Assembly: GCA_020050685.1 (NCBI GenBank)
Contig: JAGVKG010000040.1
Location: 1-64,000, forward strand
Length of the DNA stretch: 64,000 nt
Direction of reading: 5' to 3'
From: Candidatus Obscuribacterales bacterium
GTDB taxonomy: Bacteria > Cyanobacteriota > Vampirovibrionia > Obscuribacterales > Obscuribacteraceae
The notes below the pieces were generated by a model, which was given only the letters and a program-made list of their open reading frames with translations, did no database searches and was not told where the DNA came from. The position numbers and the translations under genes are program-made. Of this stretch, positions 944 to 25,811 are shown piece by piece. How positions within the stretch are numbered: position 1 is the first letter of the stretch; every line of letters starts with the position of its first letter.

Positions 944-1330
944 ATGGTAACTAAAATTTCAGTAGATGATCTTCTCGATCAAATCGGATCATTGACACTG
1001 CTCGAAGCAGCTGATCTGAAGAAGAAAATGGAAGACAAATTCGGTGTTACCGCAGCTGCCCCAATGGCATTTGCTGCTGCACCAGCTGGTGGTGGCGGTG
1101 GTGCCGCAACCGAAGAGAAGACTGAATTCGATGCAATCTTGACCTCAGTCGGCGATAAGAAGATTGAAGTTCTGAAGATCGTTCGTGAAGTCACTGGTCT
1201 CGGTTTGAAAGAAGCCAAAGACCTCGTTGATGCAGCTCCAAAGCCGCTCAAAGAAAAGTGCAAGAAGGAAGAAGCCGAGCAAATCAAGCAAAAAGTTGAA
1301 GCTGCCGGCGCCAAGGTGGAAATTAAGTAA
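944..1330 (+). CDS. rplL: 50S ribosomal protein L7/L12
   Basis: L7/L12 is the mobile stalk protein that recruits and stimulates translation GTPases. The 128-residue product shows the N-terminal dimerisation helix ([20 protein letters not shown]), an Ala/Gly hinge near residues 45-58, and the C-terminal domain with [29 protein letters not shown] and the final GAKVEIK. Two ATGs lie six bases apart, at 938 and 944. AAGGAG at 929-934 is nine bases from 944 but only three from 938, so 944 is preferred. A strong terminator follows. Confidence 0.97.
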
Positions 1331-1354
1331 TTTCGCCAAAATGGTAATCTGGAA

Positions 1355-1378
1355 GGGCGGGGTTATCCCCGCCCTTTC
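1355..1378 (+). terminator. intrinsic terminator after rplL
   Basis: GGGCGGGG at 1355-1362 and CCCCGCCC at 1367-1374 form a perfect 8-bp GC stem with a TTAT loop, followed by TTT. It separates the rplJ-rplL operon from the next gene. Confidence 0.85.
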
Positions 1379-1406
1379 TATACTCCCCTCATCAATAGTG
1401 AGAAAT

Positions 1407-3038: not shown

Positions 3039-3143
3039 TCATAATAAAGTTCGTTTTGTCGCCATTTGATCAAAGTCAAGTAGGTTAGTCTGCGCTATTA
3101 TTTTGAAGCGCGATACTACGCTTGAGTTCATAGGGGGAGATGC

Positions 3144-4130: not shown

Positions 4131-4409
4131 ATTGATCGAGTGTCCGCAAATTAGGATCTTTTGCTTGTGTGCTGACAATTTCTACAATGTTGATTTTCTT
4201 CATCAAGAATTCTCTAAAGGATCCTGGGTTGACAACCTGGTTAAGTCCATCTCAGCTCGTTGACTTTCGTAGACGACTGGTCTAATATGGACGAGTTGAA
4301 ATTTACAAATTGAATAAATGCGCTTTGGCGCGTGGCCCCATTTTTGCTTGGCAGCAATGAAGGCTAGATTTGATTTGGAAGAAATATTTTGAAATTAGGA
4401 GAGTGGGAA

Positions 4410-5204
4410 ATGGATTTGAATTTAAAAGGTAAGCGCGCATTAGTAAGTGGCTCCACTGCGGGAATTGGTCTGTCTATTGCTAAAGCTTTAGCTAAAGAAG
4501 GAGCAAGTGTTTTTATCACGGGCAGGAACAAAGAAAAATCGGAGAATGCTCGGCAAGATATTTTGCTGTCGGTGCCAGGAGCCGATGTCACGACTATTGT
4601 TGCTGATCTCGGTACAAAGGCTGGAGCAGAGACGGTAATAAATAAAGTACCTAGTGTAGATATCTTGGTGAATAATTTAGGCATTTATGAAGCCAAATCA
4701 TTTTTCGATATTGAAGATCGTGACTGGGAATATCTCTTTGAAGTAAACGTGATGAGTGGTATCAGACTTTCGCGTCATTACATGCAGGACATGCTTGCGC
4801 GTAATTGGGGCAGGGTGCTATTTATCTCAAGCGAAGCCTCAATCATGATTCCACCAGAGATGATCCACTATGGACTAACGAAATCGGCACAACTTTCGGT
4901 GATGAGAGGGCTAGCTGAGTTGACTAAAGGAACCAAGGTAACTGTCAATGCAGTCTTGCCTGGACCAACCATGTCGGAAGGCATCATGGACTTCATCAAA
5001 AGTGTTTCGTCCGACGTCAATGCGTCGCATGAAGATATTGAAAGGGAATTTTTTGCCAAACATCGTTCTTCATCACTTTTGCAGCGCATGATCGACCCTG
5101 CCGAAATCGGCAATTTGGTGGCATTTGTAGCCAGCCCCCTAGCAGCTGCCACAAATGGTGCATCACTACGCGCCGAAGGCGGCCTCTTAAGGTCAATATA
5201 TTAG
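4410..5204 (+). CDS. short-chain dehydrogenase/reductase
   Basis: A classical NAD(P)-dependent SDR of 264 residues. It has the cofactor motif SGSTAGIG (13-20), NNLG (89-91; usual form NNAG), Ser141, and the YxxxK pair Tyr154/Lys158 in IHYGLTKSA. Substrate is unknown; the sequence resembles 3-oxoacyl-ACP-reductase-like SDRs. AGGAG at 4398-4402 is seven bases before the ATG at 4410, better than the in-frame TTG at 4389. A bidirectional terminator follows and the gene stands alone. The 4131-4409 gap before it holds no supported feature. Confidence 0.88.
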   Translation: MDLNLKGKRALVSGSTAGIGLSIAKALAKEGASVFITGRNKEKSENARQDILLSVPGADVTTIVADLGTKAGAETVINKVPSVDILVNNLGIYEAKSFFDIEDRDWEYLFEVNVMSGIRLSRHYMQDMLARNWGRVLFISSEASIMIPPEMIHYGLTKSAQLSVMRGLAELTKGTKVTVNAVLPGPTMSEGIMDFIKSVSSDVNASHEDIEREFFAKHRSSSLLQRMIDPAEIGNLVAFVASPLAAATNGASLRAEGGLLRSIY

Positions 5205-5211
5205 CCCACCA

Positions 5212-5257
5212 AAAACCATGCTCGGTTGTGTTGGGGAATATGGGCGAGCATGGTTTT
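5212..5257. terminator. bidirectional terminator between convergent genes
   Basis: AAAACCATGCTCG at 5212-5224 and its exact complement CGAGCATGGTTTT at 5245-5257 form a perfect 13-bp stem around a 20-base loop, with T-rich tails on both strands. It serves the plus-strand SDR and the minus-strand response regulator. Confidence 0.85.
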
Positions 5258-5291
5258 CTTTGTGATCGGGTTTGGAGTAAACAAAAACAAA

Positions 5292-6005
5292 CTATGAATA
5301 ATCGTCGATCAGATACATTGGTTGAGAGAGAGAACGTATCAGTCCTTCCTTCATCGCCTTGACTGCTGCCTGAGTGCGGTCGGAGACGAGTAGTTTGGCC
5401 ATGATACGCTTCATGTGGGATTTAATTGTCTCGGAAGTAACAACTAAACGAAAAGCAATTTGTTGATTAGTTAGGCCTTCGGCCAGAAGTTCAAGTACTT
5501 CCATTTCTCTTTGAGACAATTGATAGTCTGTGTGTTTTCTGGTTGCGATTTCGGTCAGGCTTCGCACATTGGCAGCGGCCCGCAAGACGCGTCGAGCAAT
5601 GGTTGCATCGAGCCAGGCAGCCCCTTCCATCACGGACTCGATTGCTGCTGCAAGTTGTGTGGAGCGTGTCGATTTCATGCAGTAGCCATCGGCACCAGCA
5701 CCAAGTGCGGCAAAGACATACCGGTCGCTGTCGTGTGCAGTCAGGACTATTACTCTTGTGTCGGGCCAAGCTTGCTTTATTTCTCTGGTTGCATCAATGC
5801 CATCCTTAATTGGCATTGCTAAATCCATGAGGACGAGGTCAGGAGAAAGGGAAGCAACCAGCTCTATTGCTTCCTGCCCGTTTGATGCCTCACCAATAAC
5901 TGCGATTCCCGGAAGCCTATGCAAAGTAGTGCGAATGCCCATTCTGCTAAGCTCTTGGTCTTCGACGATAATAATGGTCGTATGAGTTGCGCCCGATGTG
6001 CTCAT
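5292..6005 (-). CDS. NarL/FixJ-family response regulator (orphan)
   Basis: A 237-residue DNA-binding response regulator. The receiver domain (residues 8-125) has acidic pocket E15/D16, phospho-acceptor D61 in LVLMDLAMP, T89 and K111. A LuxR-type helix-turn-helix follows at about 165-225 (LSQREMEVLELLAEGLTNQQIA, given in part). No histidine kinase is encoded in the window, so the partner is unknown. It is a paralogue of the regulator at 42953-43624, with shared segments such as FAALGAGADGYC and AAWLD. An inverted repeat lies directly upstream of the start and could be an autoregulatory operator. Confidence 0.92.
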   Translation of the reverse strand: MSTSGATHTTIIIVEDQELSRMGIRTTLHRLPGIAVIGEASNGQEAIELVASLSPDLVLMDLAMPIKDGIDATREIKQAWPDTRVIVLTAHDSDRYVFAALGAGADGYCMKSTRSTQLAAAIESVMEGAAWLDATIARRVLRAAANVRSLTEIATRKHTDYQLSQREMEVLELLAEGLTNQQIAFRLVVTSETIKSHMKRIMAKLLVSDRTQAAVKAMKEGLIRSLSQPMYLIDDYS

Positions 6006-6027
6006 AAAACAATCCCTTGCTTAACAT

Positions 6028-6057
6028 AGTTTGGTGTTTACCTAAAACGACCAAACT
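6028..6057. promoter_or_regulatory. inverted repeat upstream of response regulator
   Basis: AGTTTGGT at 6028-6035 and ACCAAACT at 6050-6057 are perfect 8-bp arms 14 bases apart, starting 22 bases before the regulator's start codon. Position and symmetry fit an operator, but no experimental parallel is known to me. The rest of the gap (6058-6333) is AT-rich with no gene or clear promoter seen. Confidence 0.4.
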
Positions 6058-6333
6058 TCAATGTGCATGCAAGGGGTAGTGCATACGTAACCACTGCTTA
6101 TTCAGCAATGTCAAATTGCTTGTTACTCAAATCTAAAACCAAGACCTACAAAATCCGATAATCTGCTCCTAGCACAGATCGTTATACTCTAGTGTAAAAA
6201 TAGGCTATCACTATCGTTATACCGCATATAGCCCAAGGAAAAAATATAATTCGATGCGCTTAACCATGTACATGTTTATCTGGAAAGCCCTATATCCTAT
6301 AAAGATTTCTAAACCCAGATGACAATCCCGGCC

Positions 6334-6663
6334 CTAAGGAGACATGAATATTTCAAATTGCACTGAAATGGAAAATGTACCGCTACTTGCACCATTAATT
6401 GGTTCCCAAGCAAAGCCCGTTGGTAGAGAAAATGTGATGGTGCTTTCAACAAAATTATCGGGGCTGGCCAGGTCGCCGGCGGTAGATGGTGCTTGTGTAA
6501 ATGAGACAAACTTATCGCTTGCATCCACTACTGGTCCAATCTGTCCGGAGTTGAGCGAGGCTAGTGTGTCTGCTCCGGATACGAATTTGGTGCCGTAAGA
6601 GTGTCCTCTCGAATGCTCATGATTAATCAATTGGAGGCAAATAAATGCCTTTCTGGGCAACAA
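6334..6663 (-). CDS. possible small protein or gene remnant
   Basis: A 109-codon frame starting at TTG without a ribosome binding site. The first ~25 residues look random. From HSYGTKFVSG onward the composition resembles a beta-rich extracellular domain (DNFVESTITFSLPTGFAWEP, ending FSISVQFEIFMSP). This suggests the 3' end of a decayed secreted-protein gene, or a real small gene whose start is misjudged. It lies just downstream of the DUF4139 gene on the same strand. The opposite strand is also open here, so coding status is uncertain. Confidence 0.3.
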   Translation of the reverse strand: MLPRKAFICLQLINHEHSRGHSYGTKFVSGADTLASLNSGQIGPVVDASDKFVSFTQAPSTAGDLASPDNFVESTITFSLPTGFAWEPINGASSGTFSISVQFEIFMSP

Positions 6664-6685
6664 TTTCAGGTATGTCTTGATTGGA

Positions 6686-8167
6686 CTAGACCCTTATTTC
6701 AATCGTATAAGTTACCTTCACCTGTCCATTGGCCGGTACTTTGGCAGCAAATTCAAATGTCTTTGAGTCTTTCTTTGTAAATGGCATGGAAGAATTGAGA
6801 ATCTTCCACTGCCCCTGGGCATGCTCGACAGCAGTGATGTTTGCTTCTGCGCTCTTATGATTGCGCAGGCTGATTTCGTAGGAGATACGTTGAACCCTAT
6901 CAGAGACTTGGACAAAGTTGGTTTGTGTATGTTCGCCGACCAGATCAAAGGCATCTCCGATATAAAGGCGAATCTTCTCATCTTTAGGCGTGTGGTCTAT
7001 GGTGTCTTCACCGATGAACTGCAAGGCACCATCTTGATCTTTCTTATAGACGCGAACTTTGCCTTTTGGCAACGGCATACCGAGATGATTGGCTTCCGAA
7101 TTTTGCATTTCCAGTTTGACGCGTACCTTTTGCGTATCACCATCACCCGCGTAAACGTTGTAGACAATCGGTTGAGGCTCGTAAATAAACAATTTCTTGG
7201 TCGGAACGTCATTGGCACTAAACAAGCTCAATTGCTTGGTTTCATTATCATTTACGTCAGTCTTGCCTTGTAGCGTATAAAGGTGATATTCGGCGAAGGC
7301 TTGCTCAACAAATTGTGGCTGGCTTTCTGCTGCTTTGGCCATCATCGTATACATGCGCGGTGCATTGTCCTGCACGCGGTGCACATCTCCGGCTAATAGT
7401 TTAAGAGAAGCATTTTTATAAGTGCCACCAGATTTATTGTCCAGTGTTACCCAGCTGGTTAAATCAGAAGACGTGTCATCAGCATTAGCTATGGCTACAT
7501 AATCACAATGCCAATTCAACCCGGTAGTTTGATAAGCAATTTCTGTTTTGTGTTGGCCGGCTTTGGTGGCATCAAGTTTCCAGAGCAAAGACGGCTTAGA
7601 AACCAGCCCCTCAGGTAACTCGGCTAATTCCACTTCGCCTTGTGGGTTGAGGATAATACCATTTGTAGTTTTTACAACTAGACCCTGATAGCGCGGAATG
7701 GTATTGCCAGCAGTGTCGGCAATTGTCACTTGTGGTGAATTGAGCAGGATGCCGCTCAATTCATGAATTTGGCCGCCAGGCAAATGTTGGCGAAACTTTA
7801 CTTCTTTGCCGACAGACTTGGAAAGAATTGTGTTCGGGTCCATTATGTCATACTGATAGTTTTGCTCTTTCACTTGCACCGAGTTTGGTGCGGTCAGCGA
7901 TTGAAAGCTTACAGATGTCGGATCGATCTTGGCGGCGACATCTTCAAAGCGCAAGTAATTGATACCATCTTTTAGTTCCACTGCGCGGATATCTTTGACT
8001 AATCCAAAATTCTGATTGTAAATGGTCAAGCTAACCGATTCGGAAGCAGATATGCCAGACTTTTCTTCGGCTTGTGCCAGAGGCAGTGTTACTAAAGTAC
8101 AAGAGGTCAGGGCAAGCAAAACTCGGACTGCAAGACCTTGGCGTAAGGGCTTGTAAAACATTTTCAT
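6686..8167 (-). CDS. DUF4139-type exported protein
   Basis: A 493-residue protein with a signal peptide (residues 1-33, ending LPLAQAEE) and a DUF4139-like body: VSLTIYNQNFGLVKD near the start, then beta-rich repeats, GLNWHCDYVAIAN in the centre and a C-terminal KVTYTIEIRV strand. The family is widespread in outer-membrane or periplasmic proteins of unknown function. It starts 21 bases after the lpxC stop and is the last gene of the bamA-skp-lpxD-lpxC series, which suggests an envelope role. GAGG lies five bases before the ATG. Confidence 0.8.
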   Translation of the reverse strand: MKMFYKPLRQGLAVRVLLALTSCTLVTLPLAQAEEKSGISASESVSLTIYNQNFGLVKDIRAVELKDGINYLRFEDVAAKIDPTSVSFQSLTAPNSVQVKEQNYQYDIMDPNTILSKSVGKEVKFRQHLPGGQIHELSGILLNSPQVTIADTAGNTIPRYQGLVVKTTNGIILNPQGEVELAELPEGLVSKPSLLWKLDATKAGQHKTEIAYQTTGLNWHCDYVAIANADDTSSDLTSWVTLDNKSGGTYKNASLKLLAGDVHRVQDNAPRMYTMMAKAAESQPQFVEQAFAEYHLYTLQGKTDVNDNETKQLSLFSANDVPTKKLFIYEPQPIVYNVYAGDGDTQKVRVKLEMQNSEANHLGMPLPKGKVRVYKKDQDGALQFIGEDTIDHTPKDEKIRLYIGDAFDLVGEHTQTNFVQVSDRVQRISYEISLRNHKSAEANITAVEHAQGQWKILNSSMPFTKKDSKTFEFAAKVPANGQVKVTYTIEIRV

Positions 8168-8188
8168 ATCTACCTCTCATCACAAAAA

Positions 8189-9004
8189 TTACTTCAAAAG
8201 AGTAATTAGTTTCTTTGCCATTTCTACGTCTAATTCATGACCTGCTTTAATGCTAATAAATCTGGCCTTGAAGTTTATAGGGTTAACCCCGGAAAGCGCT
8301 AAATCACCCAACAAATCCAAAAGTTTGTGACGTGCAGGCTCATCTTCAAAACGCAGAGGCATAGAAAAACCTGTTTCTGTCAGGCTGACAATTTGATCGG
8401 CAAGACCAAGCATTTGATGTTCTTTTAGTGGACCGAATGTACGAGCGTCAGAAATATCGCGAGGGTCTTGGGTGTGCGTCCAGCTGCCCCAACGTTTACC
8501 GATAGCCGGATGATTCCAATCAATCATGTAATTAAGTGAGAAAGTTTGATCGGGAATGGCCATCAAAATACGGTCACCCTTTTGGCAAATAATTGGCTCT
8601 TTCAATTCGATATGTGGTTCTGGAATTTGGCGCGGCCAATTTGCCTCGGCAAACAAATCCAACCAGAATCCGGCAGAGCCGTCCGCTAAGGGCATCTCTG
8701 GTCCATCGACAACCACACGCAGATCATTCAGTCCCCAAAGGCTTGTGGCACCAAGGAAATGTTCGACTATACACAAGCGCGCCGTTTGACCATCTTGCGA
8801 CTTGCCGCCAAGCACCACATTGCGCAAAGTGTTAACCACATAATCAGATGTGGCCGGAATGGTGACATAACCATCTTTGCACTTTAATTCAAAGACAATG
8901 CCATGCCCGGGCTCTGCCAAATGTGCTTCAACTGATACCACTTGCGAGGAAGTTAGCCCACGACCAGCATAACGAACTGAAGATTGTTTAGTTTGTGCTT
9001 GCAT
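8189..9004 (-). CDS. lpxC: UDP-3-O-acyl-N-acetylglucosamine deacetylase
   Basis: LpxC performs the committed zinc-dependent deacetylation of lipid A synthesis. The 271-residue protein carries the family motifs: VEHFLGA with zinc ligand H82, MPLADGSAG at 104-112, ARTFG at 187-191, the RHKLLDLLGDL segment with ligands H226 and D230, and GH at 255-256 (catalytic His). It is slightly shorter than the ~305-residue E. coli enzyme. It sits three bases after lpxD, so the two are translationally linked. Together they show the organism makes lipid A-type LPS. Confidence 0.95.
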   Translation of the reverse strand: MQAQTKQSSVRYAGRGLTSSQVVSVEAHLAEPGHGIVFELKCKDGYVTIPATSDYVVNTLRNVVLGGKSQDGQTARLCIVEHFLGATSLWGLNDLRVVVDGPEMPLADGSAGFWLDLFAEANWPRQIPEPHIELKEPIICQKGDRILMAIPDQTFSLNYMIDWNHPAIGKRWGSWTHTQDPRDISDARTFGPLKEHQMLGLADQIVSLTETGFSMPLRFEDEPARHKLLDLLGDLALSGVNPINFKARFISIKAGHELDVEMAKKLITLLK

Positions 9005-9007
9005 GAC

Positions 9008-10135
9008 CTATTTCGCTAATTGCTTTTCTGCCATTAATGATGCGAGCTTGGCTTCCAGTTCCTCAACTTTTTTATTCAGGGCTTTGATTTCACTGTTCAT
9101 TTTCGGCAGCTTGCGCTTGTAAGCCAGACCGGTAAAGAATTCACGCATTGGTTCTGCTGGTGTGCCGGTAACAATTTCTCGTTCGCCGATATCACGCATT
9201 ACACCAGTCTTGGCCTCGACAATTGCATCTTTGCCAACGGTCAGGTGATCTTTTAAACCAGCTTGTCCAGCCAGAATTGCGCGATCGCCAATCACGCAAG
9301 AACCACCGATGCCTGTTTGAGCAATAATCAAAGCCTCGCGGCCAATCTGATTGTTGTGAGCAATCATCACCAGATTGTCAATTTTGGTACCGGCACCAAT
9401 TTTAGTCGTACCAACGGTGGCGCGGTCAATCGTTGCATTTGATCCGACTTCCACATCATCTTCAATCACGACATAACCGATATTGGGAATCTTTAAATGT
9501 GGATTGGATTCGTCCACCAACTCTCTGATACCAGCTAGGCGGCGTTCCATGTTGGACATTTTTTGCGTCACATAGCTGTAGCCGTCTGATCCGATTGATG
9601 CGCCTTGTTGCAGGATTACGCGATTACCGATTTGCGAGTAGTCAGCAATCAAGCAACCTGGGTGGAGAAGACAGTCATTGCCAATTTTTACTTTGCCACC
9701 AAGGATGGTGCCAGCCATGATTTTGGTTTTGTCACCAATTTCACAATTAGGACCGATGACCACAAGCGGGCCAATTGCCACGTCTTTGCCCAATTTTACA
9801 CTAGGGTCGACAATGGCAGTCGGATGAACGCCGGCAGCCGGATAAAAACGCTTTGGCCCGAGGACGCCAAGCATTTTTTGCATGACCACAAGCGGACGCT
9901 CAACATAAATGGCTGGCAAATCCGTTTCGGTGCCTTCTGGCAGAATTACTGCTGATGCTTTTACCTGCGGTAATTGCTTGAGCATTTTCGCTTCAAAAAA
10001 AACCGCCAAGTCACCTTCCTTGGCAGCAAGCGGTGATGGTGAAAAGCTCGACACTTTAGTGTCGGCCGGGCCGACAACTCTGCCACCAATTAAGTTGGCA
10101 ATATCACCGATAGTCATCTCCATAGGGAGCTTCAT
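9008..10135 (-). CDS. lpxD: UDP-3-O-acylglucosamine N-acyltransferase
   Basis: LpxD adds the N-linked acyl chain in lipid A synthesis, directly after LpxC. The 375-residue protein has the N-terminal uridine-binding domain (about 1-100, TIGDIANLIGGRVVG), a left-handed beta-helix of hexapeptide repeats (about 105-320), and QQGASIGSDGYSYV matching the signature around the active site. Its C-terminal coiled coil, about residues 345-375, is longer than usual. The catalytic His lies in the NLVMIAHNNQIG segment. It is expressed with skp upstream (98-base gap) and lpxC downstream. Confidence 0.94.
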   Translation of the reverse strand: MKLPMEMTIGDIANLIGGRVVGPADTKVSSFSPSPLAAKEGDLAVFFEAKMLKQLPQVKASAVILPEGTETDLPAIYVERPLVVMQKMLGVLGPKRFYPAAGVHPTAIVDPSVKLGKDVAIGPLVVIGPNCEIGDKTKIMAGTILGGKVKIGNDCLLHPGCLIADYSQIGNRVILQQGASIGSDGYSYVTQKMSNMERRLAGIRELVDESNPHLKIPNIGYVVIEDDVEVGSNATIDRATVGTTKIGAGTKIDNLVMIAHNNQIGREALIIAQTGIGGSCVIGDRAILAGQAGLKDHLTVGKDAIVEAKTGVMRDIGEREIVTGTPAEPMREFFTGLAYKRKLPKMNSEIKALNKKVEELEAKLASLMAEKQLAK

Positions 10136-14701: not shown

Positions 14702-15361
14702 ATGCCGGCTAATCTTCCTGGAATCTTTGTCACGCTTGAAGGCCCTGATGGTGCCGGAAAATCCACGCAGCTCAAATTGCTTTGCAAGTATTTGGAAGGG
14801 CAGGGTGTGAACCCGGTTGTTTCCAGAGATCCTGGCGGCACGGCTCTTGGCAGACAAATTCGCCGCCTGCTTCTCAATCCTGAACTATTTGTAAGCCCGG
14901 TGTGCGAGCTTTTGCTTTATCAAGCGGACAGGGCTCAGCATGTGAGCGAAGTGATAATGCCGGCTCTCAAAGAAGGCAAGCTGGTAATTTGCGATCGCTT
15001 TACCGATTCGACCTGTGCTTACCAAGGATTTGGTCGCGGCATCGATATGGCTTTGATCAATCAATTGAATCAAATTGCCACAAGCGGATTGAAACCGGAT
15101 CTAACTATTCTTTTTGATATCGAATCGGAGGTCGGACTTTCCCGCTTGCATCCAGGCGGTCAAGATCGCCTCGAGCGCGAAGCCTTGGCGTTCCACCAAA
15201 AAGTGCGTCAAGGTTATCTCAAGCTTGCCGAAGCAGAACCAGATCGATTTGTGATCATCGATGCCACCAGACCATTTTCACTGGTGCAAGAAGATCTGCA
15301 AAAAATCTTCGCCACCAAAGTCGATATCAGTAAAATTTCTTCGGCGAAAGTCAGCAATTGA
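14702..15361 (+). CDS. tmk: thymidylate kinase
   Basis: Phosphorylates dTMP to dTDP. The 219-residue protein has the P-loop GPDGAGKSTQ near residues 14-23, RDPGGT (the DR(E/D)P motif), the DRFTDSTCAYQGFGRG segment and a LID region at GGQDRLE. After the normal family end (near FATK) it carries a short tail, VDISKISSAKVSN. The DNA for this tail is duplicated in diverged form at 24925-24968, beyond the restriction-modification operon. Therefore the tmk 3' end looks like an insertion point for that island, and the current tail may have come with it. Confidence 0.95.
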   Translation: MPANLPGIFVTLEGPDGAGKSTQLKLLCKYLEGQGVNPVVSRDPGGTALGRQIRRLLLNPELFVSPVCELLLYQADRAQHVSEVIMPALKEGKLVICDRFTDSTCAYQGFGRGIDMALINQLNQIATSGLKPDLTILFDIESEVGLSRLHPGGQDRLEREALAFHQKVRQGYLKLAEAEPDRFVIIDATRPFSLVQEDLQKIFATKVDISKISSAKVSN

Positions 15362-15364
15362 AAC
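15321..15364 (+). repeat. direct repeat L at tmk 3' end (att-like)
   Basis: These 44 bases span the last codons and stop of tmk. They align without gaps to 24925-24968 with 36 identities. The shared core ATCAGTAAAATT is exact. Most differences keep the peptide DISKI(S/A)SAK(V/L)S, so the second copy looks like a related tmk 3' end rather than chance. Confidence 0.7.
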
Positions 15365-15383
15365 GGTATTCGTTTGACGGATA

Positions 15384-16091
15384 CTATAAATCCATAGCTG
15401 CGCCTCTAATTCGCAGCCATTCTTTTCGTTCGCGATAATCAGGCAGAATCTTATCTACCTCATTCCAGAAGGCGTCCGAGTGATCGCGGTAACGCAAGTG
15501 GCACAACTCATGGACGACAATATAGTCAATGATAGTTGGGGGTGCCATCACGCACTTCCAGTGAAAGTACAAGTCTGCACTTTTCGTGCACGTCGCCCAC
15601 CTGTAACCGAGATCCTTAACCTGAACGGTATTAATAGTGACGCCAACTTTGCCGGCAAAATGATTTACACGCTGCTTGATGCGAGGAAGTCCGCGATTTG
15701 TATAAAACGTTTGAAAAGCCAGATGTGCTCCGTCTTTACCATCACTATCGACAACAGAGCGTAGCAAACGAAACACACCTTCGCTGAACTTTAGTGGCTC
15801 GTCTTGTTTATGTACAAGTTGTAAACGATGATTTCTGCCGAGATAGAGAAATGACTCTCCGTTGACGAATTCCCTAACAACGCGAGTCGCATTCAGGTCG
15901 CGCCACTCAGCCAGATTTCGATAAATCCACATGCGTTTGCTGAGCACAGTCTCGTCCACTTGCTCCGGTGTCATCCAGCAAGGAGGGTGGACAGTTATCG
16001 TTCCATTACGTTCGATGACGATGTCGGTAGTCTGGCGATCAGAACCAGGCAAGAGTTGATATTCAATGTCTCGTATCTGACGTCGTTGCAT
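15384..16091 (-). CDS. YgjP-like (M48-type) metallopeptidase of the RM operon
   Basis: A 235-residue YgjP/DUF45 protein. The zinc site is in YIVVHELCHLRYRDHSDAFW (HELCH plus a third His), preceded by the typical YRWATCTKSADLYFHWK core. The family is often encoded immediately after hsdR in type I restriction loci, where its role is not settled; control of subunit stability is a reasonable guess. The ATG abuts the hsdR stop with no gap, so it is the last gene of the operon. The stop lies 22 bases from the tmk stop, in convergent orientation. Confidence 0.85.
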   Translation of the reverse strand: MQRRQIRDIEYQLLPGSDRQTTDIVIERNGTITVHPPCWMTPEQVDETVLSKRMWIYRNLAEWRDLNATRVVREFVNGESFLYLGRNHRLQLVHKQDEPLKFSEGVFRLLRSVVDSDGKDGAHLAFQTFYTNRGLPRIKQRVNHFAGKVGVTINTVQVKDLGYRWATCTKSADLYFHWKCVMAPPTIIDYIVVHELCHLRYRDHSDAFWNEVDKILPDYRERKEWLRIRGAAMDL

Positions 16092-19000
16092 TTATTTCTC
16101 CCCCCTTTGAGAATTACGCTTTAACTCTTCGTGGCGGTTTTTAGCCAGTTTCATAATTTCTACAGCTACATATTCACGATTATGCTTGAGTTCTTCGATT
16201 CCGGACTTAGCGATTTCAGTTTTGATCAATCCTCTGATACGCTTTTGCTTGTCTGGATTCTGCCAGAAGTCAATGCTTGGAGCGGCATCTTGAATCAGCT
16301 GTACTGCGGTTTCCATCAATGTCTTGAATTTCCCTTTGTCCACAGTATCAACTGAACCATCGGTGACACCAACTTGCAGAATATGTTCATAGAAAATTGT
16401 GACTTCTTTGCTCATGCCCTCCTCTCCGCTTTGACGCCCGGCAATTGCTTCGGCGCGTAATTTGGAAAGTTTTTCTGCGAGGATATCCCATTCATCATGA
16501 TGTTTTTCAATCAGGGCGTCAACTTTTTCCGAAAGGCTCTTGAAAAATGCAGGATCCTCGTCGTGGTGCACGGTGCAATGCTTACGCAGTGCGTGCTCCA
16601 TTTCGCTTGCTTTAGCCTCGTAATTGTTTCCTGAGTGTGCAGCTAGCTTATCCAGGAAATCATCAGCTAAAAGTTCGACCGGTGCAATTTTGGGATTAAT
16701 GCCAAGACTGATCAGGTGTTCGTTGATTAGTGCTTTTACTTTCTCACCTGCATTGCTCAGATTCAGACTTGTGTCTTTGTAGCGCTCTTTGGTTACTTGC
16801 AGGATGTATCCAAAGCGCTTGGCCGGCACTCGATATGGTTGTGCAGAATTGTGAGGCAGAATAATATCCATGCTCATCAGAAACTTTTTCAGATACACTT
16901 CAAAATCTGCTCGTTGCTTCTCATCCTTCAATGCCTTTACAGACGCATGCACAACGGCTGCTTCAGCGTTTAAATCAGGTAAAGCGCCAGTCACAAAAGT
17001 TTTTATGTCCCTTACCCCCAGGGAGACAAACTGCTGCAGTAGGCGCTGATAACGTTCTTCTAGGATGGGGAGTTCGGACATGATGCTTTGCATGCCATCG
17101 TGCAACTCTTGCAATTCATCAGTGGATGAATAGATACTCAGTGCATCCGTTAGGTGGTTTGACAATCCGATATAGTCAACAATATAACCACGCTGCTTGC
17201 CTTTCTTAACCCGGTTGGTGCGCGCAATTGCCTGTAACAAAGTATGCTCGCGCAATCTCTTGTCTATATACATTACTTGCTCAACTGGTGCATCAAATCC
17301 CGTGAGGAGCATGTCGCATACAATTAAGAAAGCAATTCCGGTATATTCCTTATCCGGATTTTTCATATCAAATCCACGGCAAAAATTCTCGACAGCCTTC
17401 ATTCGTGCCGCCTGCTTGCGTACCTGGGTTATGTAGGCGGGTTCGTTTGTGCCATCAGATGAAACTACCACTGCTGTCTTTAGGAAGCGCAATCGTTTGA
17501 GCAGCTCAATGTTGGGTGTGGTCTTGCCCATCTCCACTTCGATACGCTCAGCTAATGCAACTTCGATTGCCTTTTGATAGCGCACGCATGCAAGCTTGGA
17601 GTGGCATACCACTTGTGCCTTAAACCCATTGGGTAAGATGTTGTCCACGTAGTGCCCGACGATGTCTTTGCCAATGGCGTTAATGCGATTCTCGGCTTCC
17701 AAGATATCGCCAGTGGCACCATATTTTTTCTTGATCGCCAGTAACTCCTGTTCGCTTCGATCGCCAAAAAGATCTTCGAACGCTTCATCGAACGCATGCT
17801 TCTCGTTTAGTGCGGTATCTGCCGTTTTACCTTCATACAAGATTTGTAATGTGGCCCCATCGGTCACCGCATCCATCAGGCGGTAAGTGTCAATGTACTC
17901 CCCAAAACGTTTGTGGGTTTTCTTCTCGCCATGTCGTTCCGTTATTAGCGGAGTTCCCGTAAAAGCAACTCGGGTTGCGTTTGGAAATGCTTCAAACAAA
18001 TTATCCCCAAGATCAGAGCTCTGCGTGCGATGAGCTTCGTCAATCATCAAAATAATTCGCTCCGAATTATTTACCACTCCGAAAGTATTGCCTGCCGGCA
18101 TTGCACTATATGTACCAAGCGCCTCTGCCACCATATTGCTCAAGGACTGCTTACGCTCTTGAAATTTGTGCACCATCACCATATTGAGGTCCGAGCTATC
18201 AGTGGCAAGTTGGAGTTGCAGATCTTTGCCGCTTGCAATAACGTTTACTCGTCCGCCAATAAGCCTAGCTGTTTTGCTTAGCTGGTCTTCCAGGTCCTCT
18301 CTGTCATTAACGAGTATTATTTTGTAGTCGCTCAAGTCTTGACTGGCGCGCATCATGCGAGCTAAAAAAACCATAGTCAGAGACTTGCCTGAGCCCTGCG
18401 TGTGCCACACAACTCCGCTGCGTTCCATTACAGTAGATCCGTTACGCAAGCGCTGCATAATTTTGTTTGCCGCGCGATACTGCTGATACCGACAAACAAC
18501 CTTGACTCGCGGCCCTCCTTCTGTATCCTTAAAGACTGAGCAAGTGCGCAGGATTTGCAAAAGATTGGAGCGGCAAAGCATCCCAGCAATTAATTTCTGC
18601 TGGGCATTCATCGATTCACAAGCGGCGTCATCCTGAGGATAGAGGGTTTTCCATGCATAAAAATGTTCTTCCCCCGAGGTAATGGTTCCAAAATCAGCCT
18701 CAAGACCTGTGCTGCGTATCAGCAAGAGATTGCTGTGAAAGAGGCGCGGCTCACCTTCGGTTAGTCCAGCAGCTTCAGTCTCCTTGCGCCGCCGCATGTA
18801 GCGTTGTAGTTGCACAAATGCTTCTTGCATCGGGTTGGCACAAGTCTCCGATTGCTTTTTGCACTCAATCACGGCAAGCGGAATGCCATTAACAAAGAGC
18901 ACTATGTCGGGAATTATGTAGGGTTTCACACAACCAGGCGTGTCGATACGGAATTGGTTAATGGCATGAAACTGGTTGTTCTCCGGCTTATGAAAGTCGA

Positions 19001-19364
19001 TAAGCCTAACGACAGGGTCGGCTTCACCTGTAATCTCATTAGCATCTACCTGGGCTTTAAACAGTAAAGACTGGATAGCTTCGTTGGCTTCCAATAAGGT
19101 TCGATTGGGCTGACGCACGAGTTGACTTTGTAGATCTTCCAGTTGCCGATTTGTAAGCCACGTAGAACCATCTTCTGTTTGATTTATTTCGCGTATCGCC
19201 TCATTGAACACATGCGGCAGTAACCACTGGCGGAAGTTGCTGCGCAGGCTGGCGCTAGGATTGTGCGGCAGTCCGGAGCCTTGATCAATGATTGTCCACC
19301 CCAAAGACTCCAGCTGGTGGAGGAATGGTTGTTCGACCTCGGTGTATTCCGAGTACTGGCTCAC
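16092..19364 (-). CDS. hsdR: type I restriction enzyme subunit R
   Basis: HsdR translocates DNA and cleaves it in the HsdR2M2S complex. The 1090-residue protein has the PD-(D/E)xK nuclease motif near the N-terminus (IIPDIVLFVNGIPLAVIECK), Walker A HTQGSGKSLTMVF, DEAH-type LMIDEAHRTQ, motif III FTGTPL, and helicase motif VI QAIARTNRVKKG, followed by a helical C-terminus. All catalytic motifs look intact. The start is GTG at 19364, overlapping the previous stop as GTGA and preceded by AAGGAGG at six bases; an upstream ATG lies deep in the preceding gene. Confidence 0.95.
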   Translation of the reverse strand: MSQYSEYTEVEQPFLHQLESLGWTIIDQGSGLPHNPSASLRSNFRQWLLPHVFNEAIREINQTEDGSTWLTNRQLEDLQSQLVRQPNRTLLEANEAIQSLLFKAQVDANEITGEADPVVRLIDFHKPENNQFHAINQFRIDTPGCVKPYIIPDIVLFVNGIPLAVIECKKQSETCANPMQEAFVQLQRYMRRRKETEAAGLTEGEPRLFHSNLLLIRSTGLEADFGTITSGEEHFYAWKTLYPQDDAACESMNAQQKLIAGMLCRSNLLQILRTCSVFKDTEGGPRVKVVCRYQQYRAANKIMQRLRNGSTVMERSGVVWHTQGSGKSLTMVFLARMMRASQDLSDYKIILVNDREDLEDQLSKTARLIGGRVNVIASGKDLQLQLATDSSDLNMVMVHKFQERKQSLSNMVAEALGTYSAMPAGNTFGVVNNSERIILMIDEAHRTQSSDLGDNLFEAFPNATRVAFTGTPLITERHGEKKTHKRFGEYIDTYRLMDAVTDGATLQILYEGKTADTALNEKHAFDEAFEDLFGDRSEQELLAIKKKYGATGDILEAENRINAIGKDIVGHYVDNILPNGFKAQVVCHSKLACVRYQKAIEVALAERIEVEMGKTTPNIELLKRLRFLKTAVVVSSDGTNEPAYITQVRKQAARMKAVENFCRGFDMKNPDKEYTGIAFLIVCDMLLTGFDAPVEQVMYIDKRLREHTLLQAIARTNRVKKGKQRGYIVDYIGLSNHLTDALSIYSSTDELQELHDGMQSIMSELPILEERYQRLLQQFVSLGVRDIKTFVTGALPDLNAEAAVVHASVKALKDEKQRADFEVYLKKFLMSMDIILPHNSAQPYRVPAKRFGYILQVTKERYKDTSLNLSNAGEKVKALINEHLISLGINPKIAPVELLADDFLDKLAAHSGNNYEAKASEMEHALRKHCTVHHDEDPAFFKSLSEKVDALIEKHHDEWDILAEKLSKLRAEAIAGRQSGEEGMSKEVTIFYEHILQVGVTDGSVDTVDKGKFKTLMETAVQLIQDAAPSIDFWQNPDKQKRIRGLIKTEIAKSGIEELKHNREYVAVEIMKLAKNRHEELKRNSQRGEK

Positions 19365-20926
19365 TCTGTGCCTCCTTCGCTGCCGTGGTCCTGTAACCAT
19401 TGTTTACCCTTTTGGGTCAGTCGATAGCGTTGCAGGCGGCTATTGGGTTGCTCAGGCAAGGTCATTTCTAAACAACCTGCGGCTATGGACGGTAATATGT
19501 AGGCCCGGCGAAAGTGGTCGGCGTTCTTTAGTTTCATGGCGGTCTGCATTGCCTGCCTACTCATTTCACCGTGCATGATTTTTAGTAGCGCTGCAACTTC
19601 CATGGTGACTTCCATGGTGACTTCCATGGTGACTTGGTCGGTGACTTGGTCGGTAACTTCCCCGGCAACAGCCTGAGGGTGGCGCAGCAACCGGATAACG
19701 AATGAAGTCCGCTCATCATCGGTCTCAAACAACGGCGGCGGAGACCCATTTGCTGCCATCACCTTAAGTATTTTGGGAATACCGGTAGCCCGCCCCTCGG
19801 TTAGCTCCAGCTCTTTTAGAAATTCCCCGATGCGCCGATTGCGATAGCGGCGACTGACTGCGCGACCGGACTGCAAATCTTCCATTCGAATTGAGCGATC
19901 TGGACCAGGGAAACTCAACACTACTAATTCATCGTGGCTGATGCGCACCTCAATTGGTTCGCGCTCCTCGTATGATCTATGATACACGGCATTAACCACC
20001 GCTTCTTCGATAGCCGCAAAAGGAAAGTTCCAAAAGCGCTCTGCTTCTGCCCGATGCGGATGTTTCATCACGGTTTCATGCAGATAATTGCGCTGAATAT
20101 AGTCCAATGCTTCGCGCGTCATACGCGAAAGGGGACCCTTGAAAGTTTTCTCAACAAAACGATCGCCACCAGCTCCCTCAGGAAACCACAGAACATCGAT
20201 TTGTGTGCCGGGAAAGAAACGATCGGGTGTTTCATTGAAAAACAAAAGGCCCACGTTTTTCGGCCATGGCGACTCAGCCGGACCGCCGACCACATTCATC
20301 TGACGTCCCAGTGACTCCAGTGGCAAAGTGGTGGCATCTTCAGCCAGCGCACTGTTCACTTCAATCAAAAGCTCCTGCATCAAATGACGTGATAGGTCAT
20401 CTACGCGAGCTGCTTGTGAGAAACGATCATCAAAAGGCACCTTTGCGGCAAGACTCAGCAGCTCTTGTAGGATCTCACCTGTTGCCTCTACCGTGCTGTT
20501 GTAACGGCGAATGTAATAGTGCAAGTTCTTATTCTTACTTATTGCGGAATCCGGTGCCTTGTACGGCCGATTCTGCCCGCCCGGCGTCCACAAGACAATG
20601 AGATTGCGACCTTCTACTATTTCCATGCTCAATATTGGAAAATACTGTGGCTGGATCATCTGGCAGTAAGACAGTAGTTCCCGTTGGATTTTATCGAGTT
20701 GATTGTCTGCTAATCCAACGGGTGGAAATATCGGTTGTCCATTGGTATCACAATCCTGGCCGATCACAATGTAGCCGCCGCCCAGATTCTCAAAGTCATT
20801 GGCGAAAGCACATATTGTGCGTATGATTGCGTCCGGATTCCAACCCGCCTTATATTCGATGCGCTCGCCCTCCACGGTGCGCTGGTGCAACAAGTCCTGC
20901 AAGTTGATCGCCAGTTTGTCAGGCAT
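19361..20926 (-). CDS. AlbA_2 / HATPase_c_4 transcriptional-regulator-like protein
   Basis: A 521-residue COG2865-type protein. It has an N-terminal AlbA_2 (Schlafen-like) domain with GERIEYKAGWN and GGGYIVIGQD, and a GHKL-type ATPase module around FPFAAIEEAVVNAVYHRSY. After LTEGRATGIPKI comes a repeated linker (VTDQ twice, VTME three times) and a C-terminal winged-helix-like region. Its ATG overlaps the hsdS stop by eight bases (GGAG seven bases upstream), and its stop overlaps the hsdR start. Embedding inside the operon suggests a regulatory or accessory defence role; the exact function is unknown. Confidence 0.82.
   Translation of the reverse strand: MPDKLAINLQDLLHQRTVEGERIEYKAGWNPDAIIRTICAFANDFENLGGGYIVIGQDCDTNGQPIFPPVGLADNQLDKIQRELLSYCQMIQPQYFPILSMEIVEGRNLIVLWTPGGQNRPYKAPDSAISKNKNLHYYIRRYNSTVEATGEILQELLSLAAKVPFDDRFSQAARVDDLSRHLMQELLIEVNSALAEDATTLPLESLGRQMNVVGGPAESPWPKNVGLLFFNETPDRFFPGTQIDVLWFPEGAGGDRFVEKTFKGPLSRMTREALDYIQRNYLHETVMKHPHRAEAERFWNFPFAAIEEAVVNAVYHRSYEEREPIEVRISHDELVVLSFPGPDRSIRMEDLQSGRAVSRRYRNRRIGEFLKELELTEGRATGIPKILKVMAANGSPPPLFETDDERTSFVIRLLRHPQAVAGEVTDQVTDQVTMEVTMEVTMEVAALLKIMHGEMSRQAMQTAMKLKNADHFRRAYILPSIAAGCLEMTLPEQPNSRLQRYRLTQKGKQWLQDHGSEGGTE
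19595..19656 (-). repeat. 12-bp in-frame tandem repeat
   Basis: About five 12-base units encode VTDQ-VTDQ-VTME-VTME-VTME in the linker of the AlbA_2-type protein. Because 12 is a multiple of three, copy-number change would alter linker length and keep the frame. Similar VTxQ repeats are, as I recall, common in this protein family. Confidence 0.8.
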
Positions 20927-22232
20927 CCACAGTCTCCAGCACTGGCTCACCTACTTTGACCTGGACTTTGCCGGTGAGGAGGTCTTGCATCAGTCCGAGT
21001 TTTTGTTGTTGCAGTTTTGTAAGAGCATCGATGTGCTTGAAGAGATGTCCATCAATGCTGAGTAATCTTAACGCTATAGATTTCTGCTCTTCAATATTAA
21101 CTGGACAGGCAATCTTAAGTCTTTTGAAATATGGTAAGCCTATGGTCAAGATCGTACTGCCCATCGCAATATTTTCGAAGGTGCGCCTGTTGTGTTGCAG
21201 CCAATAGTAAAGAAAATGGTTATCCATTTTCTTGTCACACTTCCAGCACATAAAGTGTTGGCTCACCGCCATTGGCTCCGTCGTAATGGAGCTCTTACCT
21301 ACGCCTGCATCCCTTGATAGTACAACGATGCCGGCTGGGTGCAAAATTGCCGAGGAGTTTTGAATGCCTTGCTGGCTAATTTGCAACTCTGTATCCGAGA
21401 TGTACAGTTTGTCAAGCCTGTGCGAGTCGGCGAGGGACACCCACTTGATTCCACCATTCCAATAGTCAGGCATTTCCTTATTGGGTGTGTGCCCACTTCC
21501 ACGAACTGCTAGTTGATCAAGTAATTCGTACTGCCACTCCTTCGGAATCCAGCCAATTGGTGTTTCCTGATATAGCTCTGGCGCTTGTTCGCGAGATGGG
21601 CGCAATTGTCCGTTTGGAAGTACGCCACGTGTGAAAAGGTCGTGCATCAACCCAGCTTTGATCTGTTGATATTTGCTTATCAGTTCTTCAGTCTTTTCAA
21701 TGGCTGTGTCAAGGCTATTCAGAATTGCTGCGATTTTTTCTTGAGTTTGAATATTGAGAGGTAATCTCAATATTATTGCTGTAACCTTTTTTGTGTCCAA
21801 GTGCAGTACGGTTGATCCTGCCGAGTACGCTACCATTTGCCGACGTATCTCCGGCAGCATCAGTAAATGATAGAGAAAATCCTTACTGCATTGTCCTAAC
21901 TTAGGATCAATGCGCATGCAATCCATAGAGGCTAATGCCGGTTTGGAACAACCAAATTCGGGAACTCGTAAAGGACTTCCAACAATATCACCCGCTCTGG
22001 TCAGATCTGTGACGGAAAAGAGAATGTCACCTGCCGAAAGGAAATCTGCACCTGTTGAGAATCCGTCATAAAATTTGATTCCGGTAGGTTCATATCCGCC
22101 CCCCTTCACAAAGCACTTTATTGTCAGGAATGGATGCCCGGAATATCCATCGCTGTAGTCATCCGACTTATAACTGATGCCTTTTCTTTGGGTCGAGATG
22201 CGACCAAGTGTCACCGTTTGCCACTCACTCAT
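20919..22232 (-). CDS. hsdS: type I restriction enzyme specificity subunit
   Basis: HsdS supplies the two target-recognition domains that define the methylated and restricted site. The 437-residue protein has TRD1 (about 1-150) and TRD2 (about 230-375). These are separated by the central conserved helix ([20 protein letters not shown], then [17 protein letters not shown]) and ended by a matching distal helix ([20 protein letters not shown]). Both repeats look intact. It overlaps hsdM by eight bases and the next gene by eight bases. The recognition sequence cannot be read from the protein. Confidence 0.95.
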
Positions 22233-24765
22233 ATCCTAACTCCACGAGGAAGGATTGTAATTTCTTTGTCGCCTCTTCGCGCTCGGCCTCTATCTGTTTA
22301 GCAGTGACTGCATATTTATTCCACAAGTTCTCTATGGCAGCGATGCAAGCGCGTTGATCGGCACGCAGATATTGTTGGTAGCTTTCCATCAAAACAATAC
22401 GCAAGCGCTCGATAATGACTTGCCGTGCTTCGTCCGTGCTTATCTTCATGCGGGCCTGCTCTACCAATTGATCGCGGCTTTGTTCTGTAGACTTGATTAA
22501 CGCCTTTAGATTTCTGGCTTCATCCTCTAATTGTTTGTGGCGAGCCAGTTGTGCCTCAATACGTTCGGCTTCGCGGAGGTGGCTTTCCCAGTCACCAAAA
22601 CTGGTATCACGTTTGGAGAGCTTCATCATGCCTTTGGCTTCTTTTAAGTTTGCCTTGAGCGCTTTTACCTCTTCTGCAGGTAAGACGCCGGTGTCCTCCG
22701 TGTCTTCAAAATCCTCTTCGCCGGCAGCTGCAAAAAGAGACTGCAGCTCGGACAGGCGGTTGTGATGTTGCTCTAGTTCTTCGAGCACCTCAGGAAACTG
22801 ACTTTGTAAGATGTCTTCATCCGGTATCAGTTCCGCACCCCAACCACTCGCGGCGATAGATTTGAAGTCGGAGGCGAGCTGGTTATAGTAATTGGCAAAT
22901 GCTCCGCGTATCTGATAGCGGTTGAGCAGATGTTGTTCGGCGAATGTGCGTTCTATGCTATCCAGCAAAGCAGCTCGAAGTCCATACGCATTGCGACCCT
23001 TCACATCTTGATTGTCTGCTTCAGGTGCTAATGCTTCTATCTGAGACAAGTGCTCTTGCCACCACTTTTCCAAATCCGCGAGAAAATTGTTCTGCCTCTC
23101 AATGACGCTCGGATGTTTATTGACGTAATCAGCGATGGCACGTTTGTCTTGCAATACTGAGCTAAAATCAGCGTATCGGATACCATGTTCGGCATTGGCG
23201 CGGGACACAAAACAACTCTCGCGCAAGCTGGAATAGTTTTGCCAAAAATGTTGCAGAGTATCAATTTCACTGACTGGCACACCACCATGAAGATGGGCGC
23301 GAACATCGTGTGGCTCGGGTGGTGGTGCATTGTCCGCATAGCGTCGAATATTGCAGTTGTAATCTTCTGCTTTGATCTCGCTCACCGGTACGCGGCGCGC
23401 ATAGGCGAAGATATCCTGTCCGGCTCGATAGGCATGTACGATTTTATCAATATCTTCCGGGCGCAGATGATTTTGGGCCTTGCCTTCACGATATTCGCGG
23501 TCTGCATTGATGAACAAAACCGAGTTGCGTTCTGCACTGCCTGCTTTATTCAGCACGAGGATGCAGGCAGGAATGCCTGTGCCATAAAACAGATTACTCG
23601 GAAGACCGATTACGGCTTCAAGATATCCCTTGTCGATGAAATATTGGCGCGCCTCGCGCTCTTCGCCACCACGGAACAGCACACCATGCGGCATTACTGT
23701 GGCAAGACGTCCATTGGGTTTTAGCACTGCCAGCATGTGCTGCACAAACATCAGGTCGGCTTTCTTTCCTTTTTCCGGCATCCATACCGGAAAGCGTCCT
23801 GGGAATTTGATATCTTTTTTGATGTAATTTTGGCTAAAGGGAGGATTGGCTAATACTCGATCAAAGCGCTTCAGTTGTCCGTCATCATCTTGGTGCTGCG
23901 GCTCACGCAATGTGTCTTGCTGTCTTATAACTGCGTGTGAGATACCATGCAGGAGCATGTTCATTTTGCAGATGGACCAAGTGGTGCCCATCTTCTCTTG
24001 CCCGTATAATGCAAGCTCTGTTGCGTCCTTTCCACACTCTCTCAAATAGTCACGGGACTGTATTAGCATGCCGCCCGAACCAACAGTGGGATCGTATATG
24101 CTCATGTTTTCTTGAGGGTCGCAAATCTCCACACAGATCCGCACAACTTCTGCCGGAGTATAGAACTCTCCGGCCTTCTTGCCTGCGGAATCGGCGAAGT
24201 GTTTAATCAGCCATTCATATGCTGCACCGAGCAAATCCGGAAATTCAAAGTCGTCATCCTTGAGTGGGATTTTTTCGAAGTTCTGGATGAAGTTGACGAG
24301 AGTATCATCATCAAGCGTGGTTTGTCCGATTTTTTTGTTGAAGTTTATGTGTTTGAGCACATCCTGCAAGGCTTCCGGATTAGATTCCTCCAGTGCTTCC
24401 AATGCCTTGTTGAGCATTGTGCCTACGTTTTCTTTGATGTGTTTAAGAGCAGGTTGCTCTTTGCCTGTTTCGTCGATCCATTTTTCATTCCACCGCGCAC
24501 GTGGCGGCACAAAAAAATATTTGCCGGAATATTGATCCGGGTCTTCCAGATTAAGCGCAATATCATTTGCACTCAACCCATCAGACTTCCCTTGCCGCCT
24601 GAGTTCTTCTCGGCGCTGGTCAAACAGATCGCTGGCACGTTTTAGAAACAACATACCGAAAATATATTCTTTGTACTCGCTGGCATCCATATTGCCGCGC
24701 AAATCGTCGCAAGCAGTGAGCAGGAGACTTTCAAGTCGAGCTAGTGTGAGCTTGGCAATGGGCAT
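22225..24765 (-). CDS. hsdM: type I restriction enzyme methyltransferase subunit
   Basis: HsdM makes N6-methyladenine and is needed for both modification and restriction. The 846-residue protein has the N-terminal helical domain ([20 protein letters not shown]), AdoMet motif [11 protein letters not shown] and catalytic motif IV NPPF in [13 protein letters not shown]. It has a long C-terminal coiled-coil extension (about 640-846), making it larger than the ~500-residue classical form. It is the first gene of the island operon, with a promoter candidate at 24815-24842 and AGGA ten bases before the ATG. Confidence 0.95.
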
Positions 24766-24814
24766 TTATATGTGTTTCCTAAATATCTCTCATGCCAGGA
24801 AAGACCAGCCTTTT

Positions 24815-24842
24815 ATTATAACAACGTGACAATATTAAACAA
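24815..24842 (-). promoter_or_regulatory. promoter candidate for the hsd operon
   Basis: On the minus strand TTGTTT (24837-24842), a 16-base spacer and a perfect TATAAT (24815-24820) precede hsdM by about 50 bases. The -10 is exact and the -35 matches in its first three positions. Confidence 0.55.
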
Positions 24843-24924
24843 AAGCATATCAATTCCCGATGGTTCGGCTGCCGGTTGTCAGCAAACAAGATGTTGTGAT
24901 TAAGTATGTGTTATGCAAATTCAA

Positions 24925-24968
24925 TCGACATCAGTAAAATTGCTTCAGCTAAACTCAGCCATCAAAAC
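24925..24968 (+). repeat. direct repeat R, diverged copy of tmk 3' end
   Basis: This matches 15321-15364 at 36 of 44 positions and still encodes DISKIASAKLS in the corresponding frame, but without the tmk stop. No further tmk sequence precedes it, so only the tail is duplicated. It sits between the hsdM promoter and the next resident gene and marks the likely right end of the island. Confidence 0.7.
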
Positions 24969-24990
24969 AAAGCGTTAGTGTTGCTTGGAT

Positions 24991-25740
24991 TTAGCTGTGC
25001 ACGCGGTGAGCAACTTCGCGCGATAAGGTTTCGATGTCGCGGCGAATTTCTGCGTCTTGGTCTTCGTCCAGAGCGCCACCGGTATTATTTTTCATCCGAT
25101 CGGTCTTGTTCATTATGTCGGACAGACGTCTTTTGAGATGCTCGTATTCTGGTTGGGCGACTTTGCCTTTTTCTTTGGATTCGTCCAAGTATTTGTTCAT
25201 ATCAGTGAAGATGGTATCCAGCGGAGGCTTTTGCGGTGCATAAGTTCCTTGGCTGTAATAAAGCGGTTGCACATAGTTGAAATAAGGAACAAAAGTTGTT
25301 TGCTGATTGCACCAAGGATAGTAATAACCGGATGGTGCTTTCCAAAGAATAAATTGATTGCCACCGGCAGAAGTAGAAAAATAGCCCATGCCGATTGGAT
25401 TAGGCTGAGCGAAAGCCGGCCCTTGATAGTAACGCACTCCCGGTCCGGCTGGTACAAATGTGCCCGGGGCACCATAAGGACTGGCGTAGGGACGAGCGTA
25501 CGGATTTGCGTAGGGATTATAGTATCTGGTCGTGCCAGGATAGCCATATTGTGTTTGTTGACCAGGATATGGTGTTGGATAAGGCCAACGACGAACATTG
25601 GCACTTGGTTTTCCAGTTAGCTGATCATATAAAGCCGGATCCGCATAATCGGCATAAGCAGCACAAATGCTTGCTTGGGCAATTAAGGTCAGCAAAGAAA
25701 TTTTTGCCGCCAAGTATTTTGGCACTAGTCTGGCTAACAT
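24991..25740 (-). CDS. secreted Tyr/Pro-rich protein
   Basis: No family is recognised. The 249-residue protein has a signal peptide (MLARLVPKYLAAKISLLTLI and onward, cleavage near AAYA), a long Tyr/Pro/Gly-rich middle with NPYANPYARPYASPYG-type units, and a charged helical C-terminus (about 165-249, PEYEHLKRRLSDIMNKTDRM). ATGs 30 and 36 bases further upstream are possible, but they would put acidic residues in front of the signal peptide. It may be a surface or matrix component; that is inference from composition. Confidence 0.6.
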   Translation of the reverse strand: MLARLVPKYLAAKISLLTLIAQASICAAYADYADPALYDQLTGKPSANVRRWPYPTPYPGQQTQYGYPGTTRYYNPYANPYARPYASPYGAPGTFVPAGPGVRYYQGPAFAQPNPIGMGYFSTSAGGNQFILWKAPSGYYYPWCNQQTTFVPYFNYVQPLYYSQGTYAPQKPPLDTIFTDMNKYLDESKEKGKVAQPEYEHLKRRLSDIMNKTDRMKNNTGGALDEDQDAEIRRDIETLSREVAHRVHS

Positions 25741-25811
25741 AAATAATTCGAGGACCTCAAGGTTTCTCATTCCCATTGTAATCTTTTGCGGCCTATCTTG
25801 GCTTGCGCGTA

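Follow-up and report, generated by a model that had tools for sequence, protein, structure and literature searches.

A complete type I restriction-modification (RM) operon was found inserted between tmk, the thymidylate kinase gene, and its convergent neighbour in the genome of a Candidatus Obscuribacterales bacterium, where it is bracketed by two diverged copies of the 3' end of tmk. The window that was analysed is a stretch of 64,000 nucleotides (contig JAGVKG010000040.1, positions 1 to 64,000). The features of the region on which the analysis rests are the following.

14702-15361, plus strand: tmk (thymidylate kinase, 219 aa), intact (PF02223, E=1.3e-53).
15321-15364, plus strand: left repeat copy, consisting of the last 12 tmk codons with their stop and 3 bases beyond it; the functional tail (36/44 to 24925-24968).
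15365-24924, no strand: inserted DNA, 9,560 bp (the same site is found without insert in relatives).
15384-16091, minus strand: gene for a YgjP-like/M48-type zinc metallopeptidase, the last of the operon (PF01863, E=4.3e-55; it adjoins hsdR in relatives too).
16092-19400, minus strand: hsdR, type I restriction subunit, 1102 aa (HSDR_N, SWI2_SNF2 and TIGR00348 above cut-off).
19361-20950, minus strand: gene with Schlafen/AlbA_2, HATPase_c_4 and Fic-like C-terminal domains, in the slot between hsdS and hsdR (PF04326, PF13749, PF21247).
20919-22232, minus strand: hsdS, specificity subunit (PF01420, two stretches).
22225-24765, minus strand: hsdM, type I methyltransferase, the first gene of the operon (PF02384, PF12161; PADLOC MTase_I, E=5e-252).
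24766-24924, minus strand: 159 bp (36% GC) preceding hsdM, the presumed site of the operon promoter.
24925-24968, plus strand: right repeat copy, a relic of the tmk tail that has lost its stop (25 bp separate it from the stop of the following gene).
24991-25776, minus strand: convergent neighbour of tmk, conserved in the order, of no Pfam family (gene-order comparison).

Between the repeat copies lie five tightly packed minus-strand genes that overlap or abut, in the order hsdM-hsdS-Schlafen/AlbA ATPase-hsdR-ygjP. The insert extends beyond them by 19 bp past the ygjP stop and by the 159 bp upstream of hsdM, and by no more. An earlier note on this DNA had described a five-gene type I RM operon without an integrase. 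Domain searches bore out the operon, and the five operon genes are all that the copies enclose; no integrase, transposase or tRNA was found between them. The reading frames of HsdM, HsdS and HsdR are all open and each protein has the family domains of a type I RM system. The operon would be expected to give the cell protection through methylation and cleavage at a sequence that HsdS determines. A promoter scan of 24766-24924 reported no minus-strand promoter. Inside the Schlafen/AlbA ATPase gene an in-frame 12-bp tandem repeat, which gives a repeated VTME, was seen at 19596-19643.

The copies at 15321-15364 and 24925-24968 are identical at 36 of 44 bases without gaps, and the longest exact run that they share is the 12 bases ATCAGTAAAATT. 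In the tmk frame both encode DISKIxSAKxS; for the right copy the peptide is DISKIASAKLS, and its stop is gone, TGA having become CAA. The eight differences comprise three synonymous and three nonsynonymous changes and two in the stop. The repeat and the shared peptide were already described in the earlier note, whose coordinates and counts proved exact. That note also considered that the 44-bp similarity might be a motif scattered through the genome. Elsewhere in the 64 kb window, on both strands, neither copy had a match better than 25/44, and the best match in 60 Markov-simulated windows of 64 kb was 27/44. A merged 29-base pattern of the repeat, searched with up to three mismatches, had no match in 52 genomes of the order; because of this, and with the window and simulation background in agreement, a scattered motif was ruled out. 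Terminal inverted repeats, tRNAs and transposases were not found at the island ends.

The region downstream of tmk was compared across relatives. In 30 order-level relatives tmk lies directly next to the homolog of 24991-25776, with the two stops -23 to +88 bp apart. This neighbour had been noted before with its end at 25740; the gene is present and is best read as 24991-25776. The nearest Tmk among the relatives, 71% identical, is that of a groundwater Melainabacteria MAG, the contig of which carries tmk, 13 bp, the convergent homolog of 24991-25776 and then a kinase gene. Judged by such relatives, the window falls among Candidatus Melainabacteria of the Obscuribacterales type. None of about 40 tmk/neighbour sites examined in relatives contained an RM system, so an RM operon kept next to tmk by all relatives, the observation by which the earlier note would have abandoned its proposal, was not what we found. 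In 10 other relatives tested, 0.2-3.4 kb separate tmk from the neighbour; the inserts are a gene for a 1,089-aa TPR-like protein in one clade, a TonB-C gene in another, and single cases. No recognised defence gene was present in these inserts in the relatives examined, and none of the ten sites showed a repeat of the tmk tail. From the empty sites and the lack of RM or defence genes there in relatives it follows that the RM island is a lineage-specific insertion. It likewise follows that the site is no defence hotspot in the genomes examined. The suggestion that tmk serves as an insertion hotspot for defence genes was rejected for these genomes, as the other inserts hold neither such genes nor the tail repeat.

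The 1,089-aa TPR-like gene, which encodes a predicted lipoprotein, occupies the gap between tmk and the neighbour in L049 (3677-6946), L066, L114, L115, L122 and L124. In L072 (1714-2742) the gene in the gap encodes a TPR protein that matches the ATLF metallopeptidase-like domain family. A scan of viral contigs found neither tmk nor the 24991 gene.

Within the order the tail of tmk beyond VQEDL is hypervariable and can hardly be aligned between species; even the tail of the nearest relative's Tmk (71%) could not be aligned with that of the window. The shared DISKIxSAKxS therefore means a recent common origin of the two copies. Each copy adjoins its native flank. The right copy and the stop of the following gene are 25 bp apart, which is within the range of -23 to +88 bp observed for intact tmk ends; at this native spacing the right copy is either the old tmk tail still in place or an equal copy of it. 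This supports its identification as a displaced or duplicated tmk tail at the ancestral place.

The origin of the operon was examined at the protein level. The window's HsdR is at most 35% identical to any HsdR in the 52 genomes of the order, and matches to HsdM do not exceed 60% in 146 genomes of the phylum. A Mu-like prophage (L133), in which an rve transposase and Mu Gp27 are present, carries a copy with identities of 71% for HsdM, 78% for HsdR and 68% for YgjP; on a contig with a tyrosine integrase (L134, PF00589) the values for HsdM, HsdR and YgjP are 66, 71 and 64%. Chromosomal copies, with HsdR 69-72% identical, are sporadic: of 398 genomes in the phylum of G212 (by inference Pseudomonadota) 3 have one, and of 297 in that of G215 (by inference Desulfobacterota) 4. 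In a tree of HsdR the window joins the Mu-like prophage copy with 100/99 support and stands among copies of Pseudomonadota, Desulfobacterota and mobile elements, far from the HsdRs found in its order. For HsdS the likeness reaches only about 34%, as expected for changing specificity, and DNA similarity between operon copies ends at the operon ends. These comparisons mark the operon as foreign and, as it appears, acquired across phyla.

Comparison of base composition and codon use inside and outside the repeats, a check that had been proposed with the insertion, gave no sign of this. GC did not differ (0.478 inside, 0.466 outside) and codon use of the island lay within the host range, with a higher GC3 in the ATPase gene (z 3.3) and, to a small extent, in hsdM (z 1.9), and in no other gene. 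As both are host-like, composition would not have revealed the transfer. Flanking repeats were absent from all seven other operon copies with usable flanks. This indicates that the duplication is no property of the operon, and flanking repeats as a trait of the cassette were rejected.

The slot between hsdS and hsdR varied among these copies. It is occupied by a DarT and macro-domain (DarG-like) pair in L133 (14059-15839, by Pfam) and, by sequence likeness, in L160 (47-1773) and L162 (8044-9847). In L161 (5603-9805) it contains a Schlafen/AlbA ATPase gene, a 71% homolog of that in the window, together with extra genes. Another gene is present in L165 (4821-5642), and the slot is empty in L134 and L163. 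An integrase-like ORF lies at 2386-3594 in L163, near the operon relative, and was recognized by likeness only. In L133 two adjacent GmrSD-type genes (952-9535) are situated just upstream of the RM cassette, so that this transposable phage carries a defence cargo of some size. The same prophage has, upstream of its hsdM (about 9880-9950), a tandem array of TGATCATTAA units that could be operators; no such array was seen upstream of the window's hsdM.

The footprint at tmk fits three routes: duplication of a target, action of a recombinase at the tmk 3' end that was later lost, and replacement of the tmk end. On balance the first is probable, as a one-off non-homologous insertion of the RM operon in which a short target was duplicated and the copies diverged later. 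The complete type I RM operon, coming from other phyla, would have entered between the convergent genes tmk and 24991-25776, after which the final ~41 bp of tmk and a further ~3 bp were present twice. Of these copies, the left one would have been kept as the end of tmk, and the right copy, severed from its gene, would have lost the stop and drifted. We infer that this was a single event, in which the recipient's own sequence was duplicated, and that the divergence came afterwards. Because the left copy still ends tmk, the essential gene survived. Insertion of RM genes with a variable target duplication is documented (PMC3031569, PMC1643837). Against this route, the copies differ at 8 of 44 positions, which excludes a clean duplication of recent date and obliges the account to assume an old one. 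The absence of flanking repeats from the seven other operon copies also speaks against it. So does the fact that the repeat ends at the tmk stop, as an integrase attachment site would.

This last point belongs to the second route, which we regard as unlikely. A small element with a tyrosine recombinase would have used the tmk 3' end as its attachment site, restored the gene with a tmk tail of its own and later have lost its integrase, the two copies being attL and attR. The repeat consists of exactly the tmk 3' end plus 3 bases, the gene is restored, and the crossover could sit in the 12-bp exact run. The length of the repeat is typical of attachment cores. Two of the operon relatives lie near phage-type tyrosine integrases (L134 by PF00589, L163 by likeness). 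However, no integrase or other element gene is left between the copies, and the ten sites with other inserts next to tmk in relatives are without a tail repeat. The literature was searched for the use of tmk as an attachment site, with no relevant result. More doubtful still is the further proposition that the tmk 3' end is a real attachment site in the lineage for a small integrase-dependent RM element, of which the present island has lost the integrase and shows a differing tail since the element circulated between species.

Improbable as well, and next in rank, is the donor-strain origin of the left tail that the earlier note had put forward. Recombination in tmk would have brought in the end of a related strain's tmk together with the operon, the far end being joined illegitimately so that the old tail was left behind. 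The divergence at 8 of 44 positions, with both copies nevertheless readable as DISKIxSAKxS, would agree with this, as would the three synonymous changes among the six differences before the stop, a proportion that is not significant; the differences were too few for the synonymous/nonsynonymous pattern to arbitrate between a donor tail and decay, and this approach was dropped. Against the donor route, one illegitimate junction is needed: a donor strain in which the operon occupied this position would have the downstream gene in common as well, and an ordinary double crossover would then leave no relic. A single target duplication with later divergence would account for the copies equally well. 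Given a hypervariable tmk tail and RM relatives known from other phyla, the tail cannot derive from those sources. Of the insertion account in the earlier note, the acquired operon, its insertion and the nature of the far copy as a tmk tail stood, whereas the donor-strain tail found no support of its own.

We consider it very improbable that the contig is an assembly chimera, in which a strain with tmk and the RM operon was joined to a second strain at the tmk tail. Were the source a metagenome, a tail of 82% identity contributed by another strain would give the same picture, but GC is equal on both sides (0.465 and 0.466), the gene order on both sides matches that of relatives, and the join at 24924/24925 shows no overlap apt to mislead an assembler. 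Chance similarity of the two copies is refuted by the 36 identities of 44, against a simulated maximum of 27, at the exact place where a tmk tail is expected.

The island is a well-bounded case of a whole RM operon that crossed phyla and settled beside an essential gene without harm. A literature search for RM studies in Melainabacteria or Obscuribacterales found none. The architecture of the operon and the pattern of insertion are both already known, and the host group and the clean footprint add modest interest; our understanding of RM mobility is unchanged by this case.

Some integrative elements target and restore the 3' ends of genes, such as tRNA genes and guaA. The island has in common with these a direct repeat of a gene 3' end around foreign DNA and an intact gene. 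It differs from them in that an integrase is lacking, the copies have diverged and tmk carries no second element in relatives. As for the hsdM-S-[slot]-R-ygjP cassette, it is carried by a Mu-like prophage and also travels beside integrases, its flanks being exchanged in each case. This agrees with the view that complete RM systems are mobile largely by themselves or by way of small elements (PMC4176335). A pattern of RM gene insertion was named 'insertion with long target duplication' by Kobayashi's group (Nobusato et al., 2000; Furuta et al., 2010; as cited in PMC3031569 and PMC1643837). A complete chromosomal RM operon, flanking direct target repeats and the lack of a recombinase gene are common to that pattern and the window. 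In the window, by contrast, the copies are 82% identical, a short duplication affects the 3' end of an essential gene, and the empty sites are those of order-level relatives and not of a sister strain. In the RRDM island of enteropathogenic E. coli, which comprises RptR, a type I RM system, DarTG2 and M48, DarTG2 lies between hsdS and hsdR and the M48 peptidase gene after hsdR, and other pairs occur in the slot too (PMC12255303). Both islands thus have the order hsdM-hsdS-[accessory gene(s)]-hsdR-metallopeptidase and both were horizontally acquired. The window differs in that a Schlafen/AlbA ATPase takes the place of DarTG2, that flanking insertion sequences are absent, and that there is no RptR upstream of hsdM, 24766-24990 being free of an RptR-sized ORF on the operon strand. 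The variable contents of the slot across the cassette copies agree with the slot hotspot described for RRDM (PMC12255303).
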